Shown piece after piece: positions 1,604-19,644 of a stretch of 64,000 nt of DNA. The translations under genes were made by a program, and so were the position numbers. Source of the stretch: Dehalococcoidia bacterium. Lineage in GTDB: Bacteria; Chloroflexota; Dehalococcoidia; Dehalococcoidales; Fen-1064. The first letter of the stretch is position 1. Every line of letters begins with the position of its first letter. The notes below the pieces were generated by a model. That model ran no database searches, was not told the origin of the DNA, and was given only the letters and a program-made list of their open reading frames with translations. The stretch lies in NCBI GenBank assembly GCA_011170375.1, contig DUEV01000014.1, positions 51,702-115,701 on the forward strand, written 5' to 3'.

Positions 1604-4453
1604 TTAAACTGATACGGGCGAAATCGACCGGTCGAGTTCTAGATGAGGGGCTAGGTATTTACCGGTTAATGAACCCTTCTTCCGTGCTACCTTTTCCGGC
1701 GTGCCCGTGGCCACAACATAGCCGCCCTGATCGCCAGCTCCCGGCCCCAGGTCGATAATATAGTCGGCACTCTTGATGACATCGGGGTGGTGCTCAATGA
1801 TTACGATGGTGTTTCCGGCATCGACCAAACGATGCAGCACTTTTAGTAAAGCAGCCACATCAGCAAAGGAAAGGCCGGTGGTCGGCTCATCCAGAATATA
1901 CAACGTCTGTCCGGTCGACCTCTTAGAAAGTTCAGTGGCCAGCTTCACCCGCTGGGCTTCGCCACCGGAGAGAGTGGGTGCCGGCTGCCCCAGGCGGATA
2001 TAGCCCAGACCAACATCGTTCAGGGTCTCCAGCCTCCTTCTTATCTTGGGGAAGTGCTCGAAGAAGGCCAGGGCTTGCTCCACGGTCATATCGAGCACTT
2101 CAGCGATGTTCTTGTCCTTAAATCTTATCTCCAAGGCTTCACGGTTATAGCGCTTACCTTTACAGACCTCACAGGGAACGGTAACATCCGGCAGGAACTG
2201 CATCTCAATCTCGATGAAGCCTTCACCACCACAGGCCTCACAACGTCCACCCTTAACGTTAAAGGAGAAACGGCCGGGGGCATAACCCCGCATCCTCGCC
2301 TCGCGGACGGTGGCGAAAAGCTCACGAATCGGGGTGAAGGTACCGGTATAGGTAGCAGGATTGCTCCGCGGCGTCCGCCCGATGGGTGACTGGTTGATAT
2401 CAATCACCTTATCAATATGCTCAATGCCTATAATCTCATCACAGTCGCCGGGTAATACCCGCGACTTATATAATACTTGAGCCAGCTTACGGTAAAGGAC
2501 CTCATCTACCAGGGTGCTTTTACCACTGCCAGAGACCCCGGTGACACAGACAAACATGCCCAGGGGAATACGGACATCAATGTCCTGCAGGTTGTTCTGC
2601 CGTGCCCCCTTGATAATCATCTCCTCCCCAGAGCCGGGGCGACGTGTCTTCGGAAGCGGTATCTGCTTGACCCCACTGAGGTACTGACCGGTCACCGATT
2701 CCTTGCAGTCCATGATATCGTCCACAGTTCCGGTGGCGACAATCCAGCCGCCATGCTCTCCGGCCCCGGGCCCCAGGTCAATGATATGGTCAGCGGTCCT
2801 CATCATGGCTTCGTCGTGCTCGACAATCAGTACAGTATTGCCCAAATCTCGCAGCCGCTTCAAGGTCTCAATCAGGCGGTGATTATCAGCCTGGTGCAAC
2901 CCTACGGTCGGTTCATCACAGATATAGAGAACCCCCATTAGCCCACTGCCAATCTGGGTTGCCAGGCGGATACGCTGCGCCTCACCTCCGCTCAGGGTAG
3001 CCGAGGGACGGTCGAGAGTGAGATAATCGAGGCCGATATCCTTAAGAAAACCCAGACGGGCACGGATTTCTTTGATAATCTGGGTGGCAATCATCTGCTC
3101 CCGTTTAGTGAGGATAGCACGCTTGCTATTTCCGCTCAGAGCAGCTACCCACTTCAGGGCTAGGGCCACTGATTGTCCGGTCACGGCCATGATGTTCTTG
3201 CCACCGATAGTTACCGCCAGTGACTCCGGCTTGAGCCTTTTACCTTCACAGACCGGGCAGAGTCTGGTAACCATGTAGCGCTCTATCCCTGCCCGGGAGT
3301 ACTCGGACTCGGTATCATGATAGAGACGCTCCAGGCGTGGGATGACTCCCTCAAAACCATTAGAGTATTCCCTGACACGCCCGAAGCGGTTTCGGTATCG
3401 TACCCTCTCTCCACCCTCACCATAGAGCAACATGTTGTACTGTTGTCGGCTGAGGTCCTTTACCGGCGTGTTCAGGGGAAAACCACGACGCTGAAGAGAA
3501 TAAAGATACCAGGTATGCGTCTGATAGGGCCTGATAGCCCCCTGGGCAATGGAGAGGTTCTTATTGGGGATAATGAGGTCTTCGTCCAGCTCCTGCCGGT
3601 ACCCCAGACCAGTACAGGCCGGGCAGGCACCATGGGGACTATTAAAACTGAAATTGCGTGGGGCAATTTCACCCAGGCTGATTTCACAATGGACACAGGC
3701 AAAATGCTCGGAGAAGAGCAACTCTTCCCCATCGATAATCGATACCAGCACAATCCCGGCCCCCAGCTTGAGCGCCGTCTCCACAGAGTCGGCAATTCGT
3801 TCCTGGCTATCGCTCTGTCCAATGACCAGCCTGTCCACCACTACCTCAATCGAGTGTTTCTTGTTCTTATCAAGCTGAAACTGCCCGGAGAGGTCATGGG
3901 TCTCCCCATCGACTCGCACCCGCGCGTAGCCAGCCCGGCGCAGGTCATCGAAGACCGCCTGGTACTCACCCTTGCGGTCGCGGACGAGAGGCGCCATAAT
4001 CATCAAACGGGTACGCTCGGGAAGTCCCCTGATAGCGTCGACTATCTGCTCGACGGTCTGGGTGGTTATTTCCCGCCCGCAATTGGGACAGTGAGGGTGA
4101 CCGACCCTGGCGAAGAGGAGCCGTAGGTAATCGTAAATCTCAGTGACGGTCCCCATCGTCGAGCGAGGGTTGCGTCCCGGCCCCTTCTGGTCGATGGAGA
4201 TAGCCGGACTCAGCCCCTCGATGTAGTCAACCTCGGGCTTCTCCATCCGGCCGAGGAACTGCCGGGCATAGGCAGACAACGACTCCATGTAGCGGCGCTG
4301 TCCCTCAGCATAGATGGTATCGAACGCCAGCGAGCTTTTCCCCGAACCGGAAACACCAGTAATGACCACCAGCTTGTCCCGCGGGATAGTCACATCAATG
4401 TTCTTGAGATTGTGCTCACAGGCGCCCTTGACGATGATGGAATCAAGCGGCAT
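1604..4453 (-). CDS. uvrA: Excinuclease ABC subunit A
   Basis: 949 residues, full length for UvrA. Two ABC ATPase modules are present. The first Walker [10 protein letters not shown], lies at residues 33-41 and the second, GVSGSGKST, near residue 650; each module has an LSGGEAQR signature and a DEPT Walker B. Zinc-module CxxC pairs (CPNC, CVHC, CPAC, CPVC, CEAC, CEVC) sit where expected. UvrA dimers scan DNA for bulky lesions and load UvrB in nucleotide excision repair. A purine-rich GAGGGGGGAT lies before the ATG. No clear SOS box was recognised upstream. Confidence 0.98.
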
Positions 4454-12392: not shown

Positions 12393-13478
12393 ATGTTAGC
12401 CAAAGTAATGAGCTGTGCCACGGTCGGGCTGGAGGGGGTCATCATTGAGGTCGAAGTCGATATCTCCCCAGGCCTCCCCTCCTTCACCATTGTAGGTCTG
12501 CCCGATACCGCCGTCCAGGAAGCACGGGAACGGGTAAGGGCTGCCATCCGCAACTCCGACTTTACCTTCCCGATGAAGCGCATCGTCGTCAATTTGGCCC
12601 CCGCCGACCTCAAAAAGGCTGGCCCGGCCTATGACCTGCCGATTGCCGTCGGTATCCTGCTTGGTTTGGAGCAGGCATCTGCCGATGTCTCCCAGACAGT
12701 CTTACTCGGCGAGCTATCGCTCGACGGTAGCCTGCGCCATACCACCGGCGTCCTGCCCATGGTCGCCGCAACCCACGAGAAGGGTTTCTCCGATATCATC
12801 GTCCCCACCGCCAATGCCCAGGAGGCATCCCTGGTGGACGGTGCCCGGATAATGCCTTTCGATACCCTGTCGCAACTGGTCAGCTACTTCCAGGGGGAGA
12901 TAGCCGCGCCCGAGTGCCAAGCTGAAGCAGTCGATGAATATGTAGTACCGCTATGGGCTACTACTGACCTTGCCCATGTCAAGGGCCAGGAGCATGTCAA
13001 GCGTGCTCTGGAGATAGCCGCCGCCGGTGGCCACAACGTCATCATGATGGGACCTCCCGGGGCAGGTAAAACACTACTGGCACGGTCGCTCCCTTCAATA
13101 CTACCACCGATGACCAACGATGAAGCCCTTGAGGTCACCAAGGTGTACAGCATAAGCGGTCTGCTGCCACCGGACAGCCCGTTTATCCGGCAGCGCCCCT
13201 TCCGCTCTCCCCACTACACCGTCTCCAACGTGGGGCTGGTGGGGGGTGGACGCTTCCCCAGGCCTGGAGAGGTAAGTCTCAGTCACCGCGGGGTGCTCTT
13301 CCTCGATGAGTTACCCGAGTTCGGCCACGCCTTGTTAGAGTTATTACGTCAGCCCCTGGAAGACAAGGTAATCACCATCAGCCGGGCACAGGGCAGTCTG
13401 ACATTTCCCGCTAATTTCATGCTGGTAGGAGCGATGAACCCCTGTCCGTGCAGGGTGCAATTACAAAATTGGAACTGA
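12393..13478 (+). pseudogene. comM: Truncated ComM/YifB Mg-chelatase-like AAA+ protein
   Basis: 361 residues against about 500 for the family. Present are the N-terminal ChlI domain ([20 protein letters not shown]), the Walker [20 protein letters not shown], Walker [12 protein letters not shown] and the sequence down to MNPCPC. There the normal continuation of the AAA lid and C-terminal domain is replaced by RVQLQNWN and a stop. No matching continuation was found in the 120 bases that follow. ComM is a hexameric branch-migration helicase for natural transformation; without the lid and C-terminal domain this copy is probably inactive. The break coincides with the arrival of the dehydrogenase gene downstream. 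Confidence 0.8.
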
Positions 13479-13601: not shown

Positions 13602-14378
13602 ATGAAACTGGCAGACGTTAAGAGCATTGGCGTTTTGGGCGCCGGTGTTATGGGGGGTGGTATTTCGCAGTCGGCCATCCTGGCTGGCTACAATATCATT
13701 TGCCGGGACCTGACCGATGAAATACTGGCCAGGACCAAGGATACCATCATCAACGGCCGCTTCGGCCTCAAGGGTGGGGTCGAGCGGGGCAAACAGACCC
13801 AGGAGGAGATGGACGCTGCCCTGGCAAGATTGACCCTGACCACCAAGGTGGAAGACCTCAAAGACTGCGACCTTATTATCGAGGCAATCGGTGGCGGTGA
13901 CACCGGCCAGCTGGAGGACAAGCCACTGAAGCTGAGGGTGTTCGCCGAACTGGACGAGATAGTAAAGAAAGAGGCTGTCTTTGCCAGTAACACGTCCAGG
14001 TTTACCATTGCCGACCTGGCAGCGGCCACCCAGCGTAAGGAGCACTTCATCGGAATGCACCTTTTCAGTCCAGCCAACATTATGAAGCTGGTGGAGGTAA
14101 TCTACACGGCCGATACAACCGAGGATACCATCGTGCTGATCGAAGAACTATCCAAGAGCTGGGGCAAGACACCGGTACGCGTTAAGGACGTACCGGGAGA
14201 CACCGGCTTTATCGGGAACCGTGTCATGGGCGCCGCCAGGAGAGAGGCCATGAAGGTAGTCGAGGAAGGAATCGCTACCGCCGAGGACGTCAATACCGCC
14301 ATGATGCTCGGTTTCAACTGGCCGGCTGGCCCATTACCATTGGCTGGTCGTCCTGGTGCCCGCTCCGGTTGGCAGTAG
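13602..14378 (+). CDS. 3-hydroxyacyl-CoA dehydrogenase, short C-terminus
   Basis: 258 residues. A Rossmann GAGVMGGGIS lies at about 14-23; SNTSRF and HLFSPANIMKLVEV supply the substrate-binding Ser and catalytic His, and FIGNRVMGAARREA begins the C-terminal dimer domain. It would oxidise (S)-3-hydroxyacyl-CoA with NAD+ in beta-oxidation-type pathways. The protein stops soon after GFNWPAGPL, roughly 25-30 residues earlier than FadB/Hbd-type enzymes. It may be a genuine short subfamily or a 3' truncation. AAAGGAGAG precedes the ATG and a terminator follows. Confidence 0.8.
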   Translation: MKLADVKSIGVLGAGVMGGGISQSAILAGYNIICRDLTDEILARTKDTIINGRFGLKGGVERGKQTQEEMDAALARLTLTTKVEDLKDCDLIIEAIGGGDTGQLEDKPLKLRVFAELDEIVKKEAVFASNTSRFTIADLAAATQRKEHFIGMHLFSPANIMKLVEVIYTADTTEDTIVLIEELSKSWGKTPVRVKDVPGDTGFIGNRVMGAARREAMKVVEEGIATAEDVNTAMMLGFNWPAGPLPLAGRPGARSGWQ

Positions 14379-14828: not shown

Positions 14829-15335
14829 TTACTGCACCTCGACAGTAGCGCCAGCAGCTTCCAGTTTCTCTTTCATACTGGCAGCCTCGTCCTTGGTGAC
14901 CCCTTCTCTCACGTTTGTAGGGGCACTCTCCACCAGGTCTTTGGACTCTTTCAGACCGAGAGATGTCAGTTCCCGCACCGCTTTTATAACGTTAATCTTA
15001 TTGGCTCCGAAGTCCTTGAGTACAATGGTGAAAGCGGTCTGTTCCTCGGCTTCTGCCGCAGGAGCACCCGCCTCAGCTGCGGCTCCCCCTGCCTGAGCAG
15101 CGACTGCTACTGGAGCAGCGGCGCTAACACCGAATTCCTCCTCCAGAGCCTTAACCAGTTCAGACAACTCAAGAACGCTCATGCTCTTGATGGCATTCAT
15201 TATGTCATCAAGAGATGAAGACTTCTTCGCCTTCTCGGCTTTGGCCGGCGCCTTAGCTTTGGTTGCCTTCGGTTTCTTTCCCTCAGCCTCTTCAGCCGTA
15301 GCTTCCTGTGTTACTTCTGTATTCTCTTCAGTCAT
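14829..15335 (-). CDS. rplL: Ribosomal protein L7/L12 with N-terminal extension
   Basis: 168 residues from the ATG at 15335, which has GGAAGGAGCACAG upstream. Normal L7/L12 is 120-130 residues. Here a Glu/Ala/Lys-rich tail of about 45 residues precedes the usual dimerisation domain ([20 protein letters not shown]). The Ala-rich hinge and the conserved factor-binding domain ([30 protein letters not shown]) follow. L12 recruits translation GTPases on the ribosome stalk. It overlaps rplJ by 8 bases, which suggests translational coupling. Confidence 0.95.
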
Positions 15336-15861
15336 TCTGTGCTCCTTCCAGTTGTTCAATTCTAGCCTGTAGTACCCCGGCAAGCCCACGCATCGGACCA
15401 GCGAGGACCCCCACTAATCTCCACAGCGGACTCTGCATCCCGCCAACAACCCTGCCCAGCAGAACCTCACGCGACGGTAACCAGGCAAGGCTATTAACCT
15501 CTTCGGCGGTAAGCATCCGCTCCGGCAGGAAGCCAGCCTTGATACTGGCCGTAGTCCCGGAGGTCCGAATGTAATCGGCCACTGCCCTGGCCATCTGGAT
15601 GATTTCGCCATAGCCAAAGGCTATCGCCACCGGCCCTTCAAAAGAAGCTGCCAGGTCCGGTCGCTCCACCCGTTCGGCAGCAAATCGTGCCAGGGTATTC
15701 TTGACAACCCTGTAAGAGCCGTCCGACTCCTGTACTTTGCGACGCAATGCCGTTATCTCGGAATTTGACAGCCCCCGATAGTCTGTCAGGATAGCGATGT
15801 TACAGTTGGAGAACTCGCTCTGCAAGGCATCAATAATCTTCGCCTTCTTATCTCTAGACAA
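15328..15861 (-). CDS. rplJ: Ribosomal protein L10
   Basis: 177 residues. The N-terminal [20 protein letters not shown] and [16 protein letters not shown] segments are typical of L10, which anchors L12 dimers and binds 23S rRNA at the stalk base. The C-terminal helix that carries L12 is present. GGAGG lies before the ATG. It is preceded by a structured leader and a terminator-like hairpin, and L10 commonly autoregulates through such a leader. Confidence 0.97.
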
Positions 15862-16065
15862 ATGCTCCCACCTCCTTACATCCTGTTAAACCGAATACCT
15901 ATTCAAAAAAGTCCTCGTGCCCGCTGCACGAGGACTTATCATTTCAAACCCAGGGCAGTCGCTACCATTAGCAATGGCAAGCTACTACCACGCATTTTCC
16001 TCGGCAGGCAAGCTTTAAGCCACAACCGGCACCCGCTGTCTCAGGATATTTAATTGTTATTTAAT
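15862..16065 (-). ncRNA. L10-type ribosomal leader
   Basis: Upstream of rplJ on the minus strand the transcript would contain GCTTGCCTGCCGAGGAAAA. This resembles the conserved TGCCGAGG core of the ribosomal protein L10 leader. The attenuator hairpin at 15905-15937 follows. Further upstream, 16066-16140 holds GC-rich inverted repeats (GCTGGGT/ACCCAGC) that could be the end of the thiolase transcript. The assignment is by position and core motif; a covariance search was not possible. Confidence 0.6.
15905..15937 (-). terminator. Attenuator hairpin before rplJ
   Basis: Perfect 12-base stem AAGTCCTCGTGC (15909-15920) with GCACGAGGACTT (15926-15937), 5-base loop, followed on the minus strand by six T residues. 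It lies 44 bases before the rplJ start, so it can only control entry into rplJL. Confidence 0.8.
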
Positions 16066-16145
16066 GATGCTGGGTAGGGGGTTGGCACCCAGCCTGAACC
16101 TGGCACCAGCCCCCATATTAACTAGATAGTATCAGGGGTAACTTA

Positions 16146-17369
16146 CTATACCCCTTCCAGCCCAACGATACCTACGAAAATAGCACAACCAGCCGGACCA
16201 CCACCCAAGTTATGTGTCAGCCCCAGCTTGGGGTTCTTTATTTGCCGTGAAGGCTGTCCCGGATTCAGCATATCGTCTGCTTTGCCCTGGAGCTGCTTGT
16301 ACATCTCGTAGAGCATCCGGATGCCACTGGCACCAATTGGATGCCCGAAGCACTTCAGACCGCCATCCGGTTGCACCGGCAGGCCACCATCTAGGTCGAA
16401 GAAGCCATCCTCAATATCCCGCTGGACCTTTCCCCGCTCGCTAAACCTGAGGTCTTCCATAGTGACCGCCTCGGTGATGGAGAAACAGTCATGGACCTCG
16501 GCCATGCTGATTTGCTCGCGTGGATTGGTTATCCCAGCTTCTTTGTAGGCTGCCTCCCCGGCCCTAACAGTAGCCTCAACATGCATGTAGTCGAACTTCG
16601 TGTTAAGGTTGCCGTCATTGGGTGCCATGGCAATCTGCAGCGCCTTAGCAAACATGGGCGGCTCTTTGCCCTTGCGCAAGTTCTTGGCAATCTCCGGTGT
16701 CGTGATAATCGCCGCTGCCGCACCGTCACTGACACCACAACAGTCGTACAGACCCAAAGGCCAGGCAACCATCGGCGCATTGAGAATTGCATCCATGGTG
16801 ACTTCTCTCTGGAAGTGCGCCTTCTTGTGCCGCTGACCATTGGCATGGCTCTTCCACGATACCCGGCCTATCATGTGCTTGCCTTCCTCGTAGCTGAGAC
16901 CATAATGGTCAAAATAGGTCGTGGCCAGCATAGCAAATGACGCCGGTGGCGGGCCCTGTGCCGCTGCCATCAGACCATGACCAGGGCCAGGTATCGAGCC
17001 ATCGGTCAGGCCGCTGAGACCACTGTCCTTGTACTTGTCGCAACCAATAGCCAGCACGATGTCATATACACCAGCAGCCACAGCATAGCTGGCATTGCGG
17101 AATGCGTCTGAAGCTGTAGCACAGGCATTCTCGACTCTGGTAATAGGAATATACTGGAGTCGTAGAGGCTCAGATATTGTCATACCGGTGCCACCGGTTG
17201 CAGTACCTACCCAAGCAGCCTGGATATCCTCCGGCCCTATTCCGGCATCCTCAAAGGCCTCATAGGCAGCCTCCACAATCAGGTCATCGACACTGGCATC
17301 CCAGCGTTCTCCGAACCTGGTGCACCCCATGCCAGCAACAGCCACCCTATCCTTAATACTTCCTGCCAT
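16146..17369 (-). CDS. SCP2-type thiolase family protein
   Basis: About 407 residues, using the second ATG because GGGAGG sits 8 bases before it but only 2 bases before the first ATG at 17375. It has the thiolase fold with VENACATASDAFRNA (nucleophile Cys about residue 85), VHDCFSITE and CFGHPIGASGIR, so the Cys and His of thiolase chemistry are kept. The C-terminus is NLGGGPAGCAIF. It would form or cleave a 3-ketoacyl-CoA, perhaps acetoacetyl-CoA. The partner is probably the HMGS-like/DUF35 fusion 44 bases upstream. It lies inside the ribosomal protein operon, between rplA and rplJ. Confidence 0.85.
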   Translation of the reverse strand: MAGSIKDRVAVAGMGCTRFGERWDASVDDLIVEAAYEAFEDAGIGPEDIQAAWVGTATGGTGMTISEPLRLQYIPITRVENACATASDAFRNASYAVAAGVYDIVLAIGCDKYKDSGLSGLTDGSIPGPGHGLMAAAQGPPPASFAMLATTYFDHYGLSYEEGKHMIGRVSWKSHANGQRHKKAHFQREVTMDAILNAPMVAWPLGLYDCCGVSDGAAAAIITTPEIAKNLRKGKEPPMFAKALQIAMAPNDGNLNTKFDYMHVEATVRAGEAAYKEAGITNPREQISMAEVHDCFSITEAVTMEDLRFSERGKVQRDIEDGFFDLDGGLPVQPDGGLKCFGHPIGASGIRMLYEMYKQLQGKADDMLNPGQPSRQIKNPKLGLTHNLGGGPAGCAIFVGIVGLEGV

Positions 17370-17413
17370 CTTCATTACCTCCCTGATTATCTATTCTGCC
17401 AGTTAATTATATT

Positions 17414-18841
17414 CTACTCCCTAACCGGTTTTATTTTCCAGAAGTAGCTCTTAGCATTATCTGCGGTCCTTGTCATTCTGAAGGTCATCTCGACATCCAT
17501 ACCCACTTTGCACTCTTCGGGGTCACGGTCGACCAAGTCGAAAAGACCTCTACCGCCTCCTTCGAAGTTAACCACAGCTCGTGTCATCGGTGGATTGATA
17601 CCGCCACCGAGAAAATCGTGACTGAAGGTAACAACCTTACCTGTTTTATCGGAGAAACGATAGGGCTCGAAGTTGTCCTTTGCCTGGCACTCAAGACAGA
17701 CATGAGCACGCATTGAGGAGCCCCTCATATATAGTTGTACAGTGCCACAGTTCCGGCACTTCACGCCATAGAGAGCCAGGCCGAGTTTACGCTCTCTCCA
17801 CTCCGCCGACATGGATATGCCGCCGCGAGCACGTACCTGAGTCGGTACGATATCACGCCAGCGCATGTACTTTCCATAGTTATCTAGTGTTCCTTTAATA
17901 GCCAGATGGCGTTTGATAGCCCTTCTGTCCTTGATTTTCTCAATCTGGTCAGTTATTTTCAGCACAACGGCATCACAGCCGGTACCCCAAGAGACCATCA
18001 GGAACCTCTCGCCTGGCTTGGCATCTTCCAGCGCCGAAATCAGCATCATCAGCGGCTGTGCTACCCCCGTATTACCCACGTTATCGAGAAGTGGGTCTTG
18101 CACCTGCTCGGGTGCGAATCCCATTCTCCTGGCCAGGCCGCCCTGTGCCCTGGCATTGGCACCAGCGATACAGGCCTTGCTGATGTCCTGGGGTGTCAGG
18201 TTCAGTTTTTCCATGAGTTTCTTGACCACTTCAGCGGGTATCTGGCTGTAACCGGCATCACGGCCAAAACGGTCCTCCCAGGAGCGAATGAACTCATCAC
18301 CATCCATTCTCCAGTAATCTGCTAAATCGTCCGAGTAGGTAACACTACCTTCAATCTCAACCGCTACTGCGTCATTTCCCACCAGGAAGGCAGCAGCACC
18401 ATCACCCAGAGCCTGTTCATGCTCCCCCCCAGGAGTTCCCATACGCAGGTCAGAAGCGGTAACTAGGATATTTCCGAGCGAACCTGCGTTCACCGCATCC
18501 ACAGCTGCCATGAGGGCACTGACACCTGCCCTGAGTGAATTACCAAAATCAGCATTCCGCACATCACGGCGAAAGTCAAGGGCATTTGAAACTATGTTTG
18601 AGCCCAACCGCTCGAGATAGGGAGGAGTAGTAGTTGCCAGGTAGACAGCATCAACGGCCTGCGGGTCAGTACCTTTCAGGCAGTCGATACCAGCAGACAC
18701 CGACATACTGACAGCGTCTTCATCATAACCGGCTATGGCCAATTCACCACGTCCACCACCACGCCCCCAAGCGGCCGAGATAACACTTCGGGGCATCCTG
18801 TAATACGGAATGTAAGCTCCATAAGATTTAATACCTGCCAT
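17414..18841 (-). CDS. HMG-CoA-synthase-like protein fused to a DUF35 domain
   Basis: 475 residues. The first 330 or so follow the archaeal-type HMG-CoA synthase/ketosynthase fold (GIKSYGAYIPYYR, VGNTGVAQPLMMLISAL, MVSWGTGCDAVVLKI). The last 120 are a DUF35 zinc ribbon (CRNC ... CLEC) plus OB fold (FSHDFLGGGINPPMTRAVVN). The usual catalytic Cys is not found: its position (about 103) reads NSLRAG instead of ACKAG. The usual Glu and His positions also look replaced. In archaea the synthase, thiolase and DUF35 protein form one channelling complex; here two of them are fused and the thiolase is next. TAAGGAGGAAAA precedes the ATG. Activity is uncertain. Confidence 0.8.
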   Translation of the reverse strand: MAGIKSYGAYIPYYRMPRSVISAAWGRGGGRGELAIAGYDEDAVSMSVSAGIDCLKGTDPQAVDAVYLATTTPPYLERLGSNIVSNALDFRRDVRNADFGNSLRAGVSALMAAVDAVNAGSLGNILVTASDLRMGTPGGEHEQALGDGAAAFLVGNDAVAVEIEGSVTYSDDLADYWRMDGDEFIRSWEDRFGRDAGYSQIPAEVVKKLMEKLNLTPQDISKACIAGANARAQGGLARRMGFAPEQVQDPLLDNVGNTGVAQPLMMLISALEDAKPGERFLMVSWGTGCDAVVLKITDQIEKIKDRRAIKRHLAIKGTLDNYGKYMRWRDIVPTQVRARGGISMSAEWRERKLGLALYGVKCRNCGTVQLYMRGSSMRAHVCLECQAKDNFEPYRFSDKTGKVVTFSHDFLGGGINPPMTRAVVNFEGGGRGLFDLVDRDPEECKVGMDVEMTFRMTRTADNAKSYFWKIKPVRE

Positions 18842-18930
18842 TTTTCCTCCTTAAGATAGTACTACCATCCAGACTACAACGCAGCTATCATTTAGCATAA
18901 ATAACATTTTACTTTCCGGCATTAAATATA

Positions 18931-19644
18931 TCAAGCGGAGGCAAGCGCAAGGGTCGACCTGAGGTCAAGCCTGATACCGGGCCCCATGGTTGTGGTAATA
19001 AAAGCTGACCTGACATACTGCCCTTTAGCGCCACTGGGCTTCGCCTTCATAACTGCATCAATTATTGCCGATAGGTTCTCTACCAGTTTTTCTTTGTCGA
19101 AGCTAACTTTACCCAGAGGCAGATGGATGATAGCCGTCCGGTCCAGCTTGAACTCCACCCTACCCTTACGAGCGTCCTCAATCACTCTGGGCAGATCCTC
19201 CGTCGGTACAACTGTGCCGGACTTGGGATTGGGCATCAGCCCTCTTCTCCCCAGTACCCGACCAAGCCTCCCCACTTTACTCATCATATCGGGGGTAGCA
19301 ATAGCAGTATCAAACTCGACCCAACCCTCCTCTATCTTCTTCGCTAGTTCATCAGCACCGACATAATCCGCTCCGGCGTTCTCAGCGTTCCTGGCAGCTT
19401 CACCTTGAGCAAAGACCAGGACACGCACTGATTTGCCAAGACCATGCGGTAGAAGGGCGACACCACGAACCTGCTGACTAGCATTACGAGGGTCAAGTCC
19501 CATCCGAAGATGAAGCTCGACGGTCTCATCAAATTGGGCGGATGCCGCCTGCTTGGCAAGGTCAACAGCCTCCTCGGGTGAGTAGGCCTTCATTCTATCA
19601 ACCTGCTGGCATGCTCCCAGGTATCTCTTCCCGTGCTTCGTCAT
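18931..19644 (-). CDS. rplA: Ribosomal protein L1
   Basis: 237 residues, standard length. [11 protein letters not shown] start, [24 protein letters not shown] and the C-terminal [10 protein letters not shown] segments are conserved L1 features. L1 forms the mobile L1 stalk and binds 23S rRNA and its own mRNA. Its start overlaps the rplK stop by 4 bases. Confidence 0.98.

Follow-up and report, generated by a model that had tools for sequence, protein, structure and literature searches.

In the 64,000-nucleotide stretch of contig DUEV01000014.1 from a Dehalococcoidia bacterium that was analysed here (the window), a reverse-strand gene encodes a protein in which a half resembling 3-hydroxy-3-methylglutaryl-coenzyme A (HMG-CoA) synthase is fused to a DUF35 half, and a thiolase gene starts 38 bp downstream of it (Table 1). 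The fusion is probably a non-catalytic, coenzyme A (CoA)-binding partner of this adjoining thiolase, whose Cys85 would carry out the carbon–carbon bond chemistry. The fused pseudo-synthase/DUF35 proteins form a clade separate from PhlA, the HMG-CoA-synthase-like protein of the PhlACB acyltransferase, and have a mirror-image counterpart. An earlier note on this DNA had offered two readings, a pseudo-enzyme scaffold or an enzyme with different chemistry. The former is strengthened by the lack of a conserved nucleophile, by the intact adjoining thiolase and by the PhlA analogue, whereas no positive evidence was obtained for the latter. The family-wide extent of the trait, the PhlA precedent, the place of the pair in the rplKAJL operon and the mirror-image case go beyond the note.

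Table 1. Positions in the window of the fusion gene, its thiolase partner and the surrounding ribosomal operon features.
Feature	Position	Strand	Basis
Fusion gene, HMG-CoA-synthase-like half and DUF35 half, 475 amino acids (aa)	17414..18841	-	Open reading frame (ORF), profile matches, alignment, predicted structure
Synthase-like (thiolase-fold) half, residues 1–335, without catalytic Cys/Glu/His	17837..18841	-	
Leu103 codon, catalytic Cys position of HMG-CoA synthase	18533..18535	-	Alignment
Thr71 codon, catalytic Glu position	18629..18631	-	Alignment
Ala226 codon, catalytic His position	18164..18166	-	Alignment
DUF35 half (zinc ribbon and OB fold), residues 346–475	17417..17806	-	OB_ChsH2_C above cut-off; match to 6esq_E
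Zinc-type cysteines 362, 365, 382, 385	17687..17758	-	Cys in 290–292 of 293 sequences
Partner thiolase, 409 aa, with Cys85, His295 and His345	16146..17375	-	PRK06157 above cut-off
Cys85 codon, thiolase nucleophile	17121..17123	-	
rplA (ribosomal protein L1), 89 bp upstream of the fusion gene; preceded by rplK and nusG	18931..19644	-	Pfam Ribosomal_L1, Ribosomal_L11, NusG
L10 leader RNA between the thiolase gene and rplJ	15896..16063	-	Rfam RF00557, 67.9 bits vs 44
rplJ (ribosomal protein L10) ORF, approximate start; rplL follows	15328..15861	-	Pfam Ribosomal_L10, Ribosomal_L12; conserved position

Domain composition and loss of catalytic residues

In a MAFFT alignment with the archaeal HMG-CoA synthase (6esq_I), the catalytic Cys, Glu and His of the latter stand opposite Leu103, Thr71 and Ala226 of the fusion, and the pairwise alignment of the two proteins is free of gaps in the nucleophile region. 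The three sites read NSLRAG, TTTPPY and CIAGANAR, exactly as the earlier note had them, and its claim that the catalytic residues of the synthase are missing is upheld by the alignment. According to the profile searches, Pfam ACP_syn_III_C and OB_ChsH2_C score above their cut-offs in the fusion, and the curated HMG-CoA synthase models of NCBIfam remain below theirs (PRK04262, 225.5 vs 244 bits; TIGR00748, 169 vs 353.35 bits). The description of the second half as a DUF35 domain with a zinc ribbon and an OB fold also agrees with the data: besides the OB_ChsH2_C match, the four zinc-type cysteines are kept and the half matches the DUF35 chain 6esq_E (E 4e-7); zf-ChsH2 alone is under the Pfam cut-off (12.4 vs 23.2 bits).

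The partner thiolase exceeds the PRK06157 cut-off with 562.1 vs 403 bits. It carries Cys85, His295 in the HDCF motif (residues 295–298) and His345 in the GHP motif, and these three residues are invariant among 31 aligned thiolases, a set chosen from thiolases that keep the Cys.

Conservation and constraint in the family

Relatives of the fusion at an E-value of 1e-20 were found in 78 of 301 Chloroflexota genomes and fall into two size classes, fused (mostly 460–500 aa) and unfused (about 350 aa). From the fetched loci (designated by L numbers), 119 synthase-like ORFs were scored, 53 fused and 66 unfused, after ORFs covering fewer than 230 of the 300 synthase columns and loci repeating others had been left out. 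In addition, 240 database proteins were analysed, the best 120 from each of two listings, including the window's own protein (P0001, and P0073, which is shorter and has no DUF35 half) and the second query; together with the 53 fused locus proteins they make up a set of 293 sequences, 292 of them distinct.

The Cys and the Glu are absent from all 53 fused proteins, and the His is absent from 52 of them, with a gap in the remaining one. Among the listed matches, none of the 240 database proteins has the catalytic Cys, and a single one has His in the catalytic His column. All three residues are kept in 63 of the 66 unfused ORFs; the other three are L101, the haloarchaeal L111 and L030, a contig-end fragment that was counted as unfused and is probably fused. 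Judging from these alignments, the residue loss is a family trait, neither chance nor decay. Where a source name is given, the listed relatives are often called 'hydroxymethylglutaryl-CoA synthase'; since none of the 240 has the catalytic Cys, this name misleads pathway reconstruction.

The earlier note had considered that another cysteine might occupy the active site. Across the 293 sequences, the synthase half has no conserved Cys; the most frequent, Cys289, does not exceed 66%. The position before the lost nucleophile, residue 102, is Ser in 138 sequences, Cys in 114, Ala in 27, Gly in seven, Thr in four and Asn, Val or His in one each; as it is mostly Ser or Cys and varied otherwise, Ser102 of the window protein is ordinary for the wider family. 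A shifted nucleophile at Cys102 was rejected as a general mechanism, because Cys is the commonest residue only in the nearest relatives (106 of 120 in one listing) and the position varies in the wider family; for the subclade of these nearest relatives the rejection is less strict. Five plasmid-borne fused proteins (L107, L110, L114, L145 and L148) have Gln at the lost Cys position. Gln at the nucleophile place is the residue of polyketide chain-length factors.

Other positions of the synthase half are specific to the family. The lost Glu position is Thr in 265 of the 293 sequences, Gly259 is present in every one, where all 63 intact synthases have Tyr, and Arg133 and Trp188 reach 98% and 97%. 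The ratio of nonsynonymous to synonymous substitution rates (dN/dS) was 0.088–0.127 for the synthase half (vs five relatives), 0.025–0.075 for the DUF35 half (vs four relatives; the fifth not estimable) and 0.038–0.060 for the thiolase (vs four relatives); the values are rough because silent sites are near saturation, which for the synthase half concerns three of the five comparisons. On this comparative evidence, the synthase half looks remodelled and maintained.

The constraint on this half, with its near-invariant Arg133 and Trp188 and invariant Gly259, together with Ser or Cys at residue 102 in 252 of 293 sequences, could also be expected of a second enzyme with its own chemistry, for example one using Ser/Cys102, or a hydrolase or decarboxylase acting on the thiolase product. 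Such an enzyme is unlikely: in the other 41 sequences residue 102 is Ala, Gly, Thr, Asn, Val or His, it lies one residue before the nucleophile position in an alignment that has no gap there, and the Glu and the His have gone as well. Moreover, PhlA, the solved analogue, takes no catalytic part in acyl transfer.

Pairing with the thiolase and its mirror image

A thiolase gene lies within 500 bp of 49 of the 53 fused ORFs, and the other four loci have none in reach. These are 48 distinct thiolases, since in L007 one shared gene is nearest to two fused ORFs and was counted once. The nucleophile Cys is kept in all 47 distinct partners that could be scored, 46 of which have both His residues, with one cut by a contig end; one more partner (L149) has a gap at the Cys column. 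The thiolase gene is downstream of the fusion in 46 of 49 cases, the exceptions being two haloarchaeal loci and L007, and in 10 annotated bacterial plasmid loci the spacing is from -20 to +13 bp. Two or three fusion–thiolase pairs per locus are present in L005, L007, L008 and L014, with fusions 35–79% identical to the window protein; the multiple pairs suggest different substrates.

The opposite arrangement was found for the intact unfused synthases of the Chloroflexota sample. A thiolase is located within 500 bp of 54 of the 63, and in 43 of these thiolases the Cys is lost (Gly in 36, Asp in four, Glu in two, Gln in one), with 11 keeping it. Of the 43, 41 have a change at one or both His positions as well. 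The Cys-less thiolases are presumably inactive. The 43 cases span 21 genera and nine families. With the limit extended to 3 kb, a Cys-less thiolase was found at eight of the remaining nine intact synthases, one being at a contig end, which gives 51 mirror loci (L037, L038, L040–L045, L053–L057, L059–L063, L065, L066, L068, L069, L071, L072, L074–L100). As the fused pairs are the opposite of the unfused ones, most gene sets of this build in the sample have one partner without a nucleophile.

Phylogeny and predicted structures

A quick maximum-likelihood tree of 92 rows was constructed, with Shimodaira–Hasegawa-like approximate likelihood ratio test (SH-aLRT) values as its only support measure (no bootstrap) and with no inferred root; it includes 16 of the 43 intact synthases paired with Cys-less thiolases and none of the nine without a near partner. 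The fused proteins group with one split haloarchaeal row in a single clade (SH-aLRT 99), and the intact synthases make up one side of a branch with a support of 94. PhlA, MucA (a long branch) and L101 are outside the fused clade. As no root was inferred, a single origin and repeated Cys loss are not told apart in this tree; one Cys loss shared by the fused family and PhlA is possible. The L101 protein (3028–4110), synthase-like and not fused, has Asp in the Cys column and lies beside a thiolase that keeps its Cys; it groups with PhlA and MucA, and its genome also carries an intact HMG-CoA synthase (L042).

Both AlphaFold models are confident, with a predicted local distance difference test value (pLDDT) of 90.0 for the fusion and 91.3 for the thiolase and a predicted template modelling score (pTM) of 0.92 for each. 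The best solved match by VIA-align Z is 6esq_I for the fusion (Z 48.6, root-mean-square deviation (rmsd) 1.4, 331 residues) and 6esq_A for the thiolase (Z 56.7, rmsd 1.8, 379 residues); for the thiolase, 6esq_A leads by sequence too, and BbsB is next by Z. The fusion is thus predicted to have the fold of HMG-CoA synthase/KAS III, as the earlier note had proposed. The chains 6esq_I, 6esq_A and 6esq_E, which match the synthase half, the thiolase and the DUF35 half, belong to one archaeal complex.

Gene neighbourhoods of relatives

Among 75 plasmid records with a match, 13 annotated loci were read, 12 with a fused gene and one (L111) with a split one. The neighbours encode acyl-CoA dehydrogenases, enoyl-CoA and MaoC hydratases, short-chain dehydrogenases and AMP-binding or other CoA ligases. 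Three of the 13 loci (L109, L114, L146) also have ring-hydroxylating dioxygenases, and two haloarchaeal ones (L112, L149) have UbiD decarboxylases.

In locus L147 (7995–10552) of Novosphingobium sp. ES2-1, the fusion and the thiolase are found in the gene order of the estradiol edc operon OpA, namely, P450, chsH2-like, lipid-transfer protein, hydratase genes, thiolase, 'HMG-CoA synthase', dehydrogenase and acyl-CoA dehydrogenase (PMC7793797). The role of this 'HMG-CoA synthase', EGO55_13555, was left open by the authors (PMC7793797). As the L147 fusion adjoins its thiolase in the same order, EGO55_13555 is likely a member of the fused family, a likeness of gene order alone rather than of compared sequences. 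VceA/VceB of lignin catabolism was considered as a characterised member and dropped; VceB is called a CoA thioesterase in one paper (PMC11837543) and the pair is called non-homologous to HpeE/HpeF in another (PMC9618137).

Proposed mechanism and comparison with known systems

The DUF35 half may hold the pseudo-synthase and the thiolase together, as its counterparts do in PhlACB and in the archaeal complex. The pseudo-synthase would wall off and shape a shared CoA/acyl cavity, so that a beta-ketoacyl-CoA would reach only the thiolase centre. The thiolase most likely works in the cleaving direction (thiolysis), since the relatives read on plasmids are mostly found in catabolic clusters.

As in the archaeal thiolase/HMG-CoA synthase/DUF35 complex (6esq), three domains are combined here, and this complex gives the best Z match for both chains. 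The archaeal synthase is active in the mevalonate pathway, whereas the residues of the window synthase are gone and its genome has ispG and no match to HMG-CoA reductase. The curated models of the BbsAB thiolase are not reached in the window (NCBIfam BbsA, 14.8 vs 250 bits; BbsB, 152.8 vs 750 bits), and to our knowledge BbsAB has no synthase-like subunit. ChsH2–Ltp2 and Shy–Sal are similar in that a DUF35 protein is the partner of a thiolase-fold enzyme; they catalyse retro-aldol cleavage, and Sal has a YDCY motif, whereas the window thiolase keeps HDCF and Cys85.

The synthase-like subunit has lost residues also in PhlACB (PpATase/CsATase) and MucABC: it has neither Cys nor Glu, and its partners are a DUF35 protein and a thiolase-fold subunit that holds the sole catalytic Cys. 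According to PMC6392133, PhlA lacks Cys and Glu, only PhlC residues act, the shared cavities are lined by all three proteins and a functional enzyme needs the whole operon; PhlC C88S is inactive (PMC12955522). The fusion of DUF35 to thiolase-superfamily members, as well as the inactivity of PhlA, was already noted (PMC2954200).

A PhlACB-like acyltransferase that forms carbon–carbon bonds in biosynthesis, by C-acylation or Claisen condensation, would share with the window pair the three domains and the loss in the synthase subunit, and among solved structures PhlA and CsATase match best by sequence and also lead by Foldseek E-value. PhlACB and MucABC differ in having three genes, as opposed to two here, with synthase and DUF35 on one polypeptide (so also in the 53 ORFs of the fetched loci); they catalyse CoA-independent acylation in biosynthesis and stand outside the fused clade, and the window thiolase is closer to the archaeal and BbsB types. 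We regard such an acyltransferase as improbable.

Several points weigh against a non-catalytic CoA-binding partner of a cleaving thiolase. The fusion–thiolase pairing was deduced from gene adjacency and homology, and the fused sample is enriched, the queries themselves having been fused. By sequence, the synthase half is closer to PhlA and CsATase than to 6esq_I (E 1.5e-37 and 4e-37 vs 5.7e-33), and CsATase and PhlA are also narrowly ahead by Foldseek E-value; as these proteins serve biosynthetic acyl transfer, the cleavage direction is deduced only from the gene context. All annotated contexts are plasmid-borne and come from relatives only 28–35% identical, and because plasmids are rich in catabolic genes this sample leans catabolic. 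In the window, the operon has no catabolic neighbour except the thiolase, and the genome also has three ordinary thiolases and a second thiolase adjoining a DUF35-like protein.

Location in the ribosomal operon

The local gene order is nusG–rplK–rplA–[fusion]–[thiolase]–leader–rplJ–rplL. The rplA gene was found in 55 of 61 genomes of the window's order; the gap from rplA to rplJ was resolved in 51 of them, four ending at a contig edge. The gap is empty in 41 of the 51 (135–426 bp) and filled in 10, namely, in the window (15862–18930) and in L160, L178 and L180–L186. Eight of the 10 filled gaps contain thiolase/DUF35-type modules, fused or unfused, with the fusion in five; in L178 an acyl-CoA dehydrogenase gene is present besides the module. 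The two others have an HpaB-like or a LarA-like gene, each with a DUF1893 gene. In six further named loci (L002–L007) the fusion directly follows rplA. Ten of the 61 genomes carry the fusion, and since in five of these it lies elsewhere or its site was not resolved, the rplA–rplJ site is recurrent, not universal. The fusion was not found in two other searched genomes of the window's family, and the fetched flanks of the close relatives L008–L012 have none of the queried ribosomal genes.

The position between rplA and the L10 leader could point to a role of the pair in translation, and an archaeal translation factor, Trf, is a DUF35 protein (PMC6996347). We consider such a role very improbable, in view of the L008–L012 flanks and of the acyl-CoA dehydrogenase, HpaB-like and LarA-like genes that fill the same gap in other genomes. 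More plausibly, the fusion–thiolase pair is a metabolic one that is probably co-transcribed with rplK–rplA and hence expressed with growth, and from the intact L10 leader it seems that rplJL are still controlled separately. In the window, the promoter scan gave five sites vs 4.8 expected and the terminator scan seven vs 4.5 expected, which is of little information apart from a terminator-like hairpin within the L10 leader.

Farther along the window, an ORF at 12393–13478, presumably ComM-like, and one at 13602–14378, which we take to be a 3-hydroxyacyl-CoA dehydrogenase, were read in three forward frames; both seem short at the 3' end against the lengths that we assume to be typical.

Metabolism of the host genome

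The source genome (2.28 Mb, 94.74% complete) has a single copy of the fusion, and the nearest named records are proteins of Dehalococcoidales or Dehalococcoidia metagenome-assembled genomes, 90–91% identical. No match to HMG-CoA reductase (PF00368) was obtained in this 94.74% complete genome, and ispG of the methylerythritol phosphate pathway is present; a mevalonate-pathway role of the fusion was rejected because of the missing reductase match. That the fusion is a working HMG-CoA synthase with unusual residues, as the best solved fold by Z and a PRK04262 score just below the cut-off might hint, is practically discounted, because Cys and Glu are missing from all 53 fused proteins, no reductase match was found in the genome and in the sampled phylum the intact synthases that are not fused have the full Cys, Glu and His set at 63 loci.

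The genome has 19 acyl-CoA dehydrogenase and 23 enoyl-CoA hydratase matches, as well as seven Thiolase_N matches, five of them above the cut-off. Outside the ribosomal operon, contig 10 (92679–94265; L188, L189, L210) carries another thiolase (a 405-aa frame), and after it comes an independent DUF35-like protein with a score too low for the Pfam cut-off.

Implications

A search of titles and abstract openings in the open-licence literature found no paper that treats the fused pair as a pseudo-synthase or describes the mirror loss. A broader and more tentative idea, which we put forward as possible though short of probable, is that the archaeal machine with two centres has been made one-way in two opposite ways. 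A dead synthase fused to DUF35 would give a catabolic thiolase, and a dead thiolase with a live synthase would give a maker of HMG-CoA. In both, the dead partner would serve as a gate for CoA and so impose the direction, and the fused form would then be an unnamed, widespread two-gene class of thiolases in bacteria and haloarchaea. In steroid and aromatic catabolism this would, if true, explain the orphan 'HMG-CoA synthases'. The mirror loss of either centre in gene sets built alike is a natural experiment in which an inactive partner may control flux through a shared CoA site. For estrogen degradation, the fused family provides a testable answer to what the unassigned HMG-CoA synthase of the edc cluster may be.
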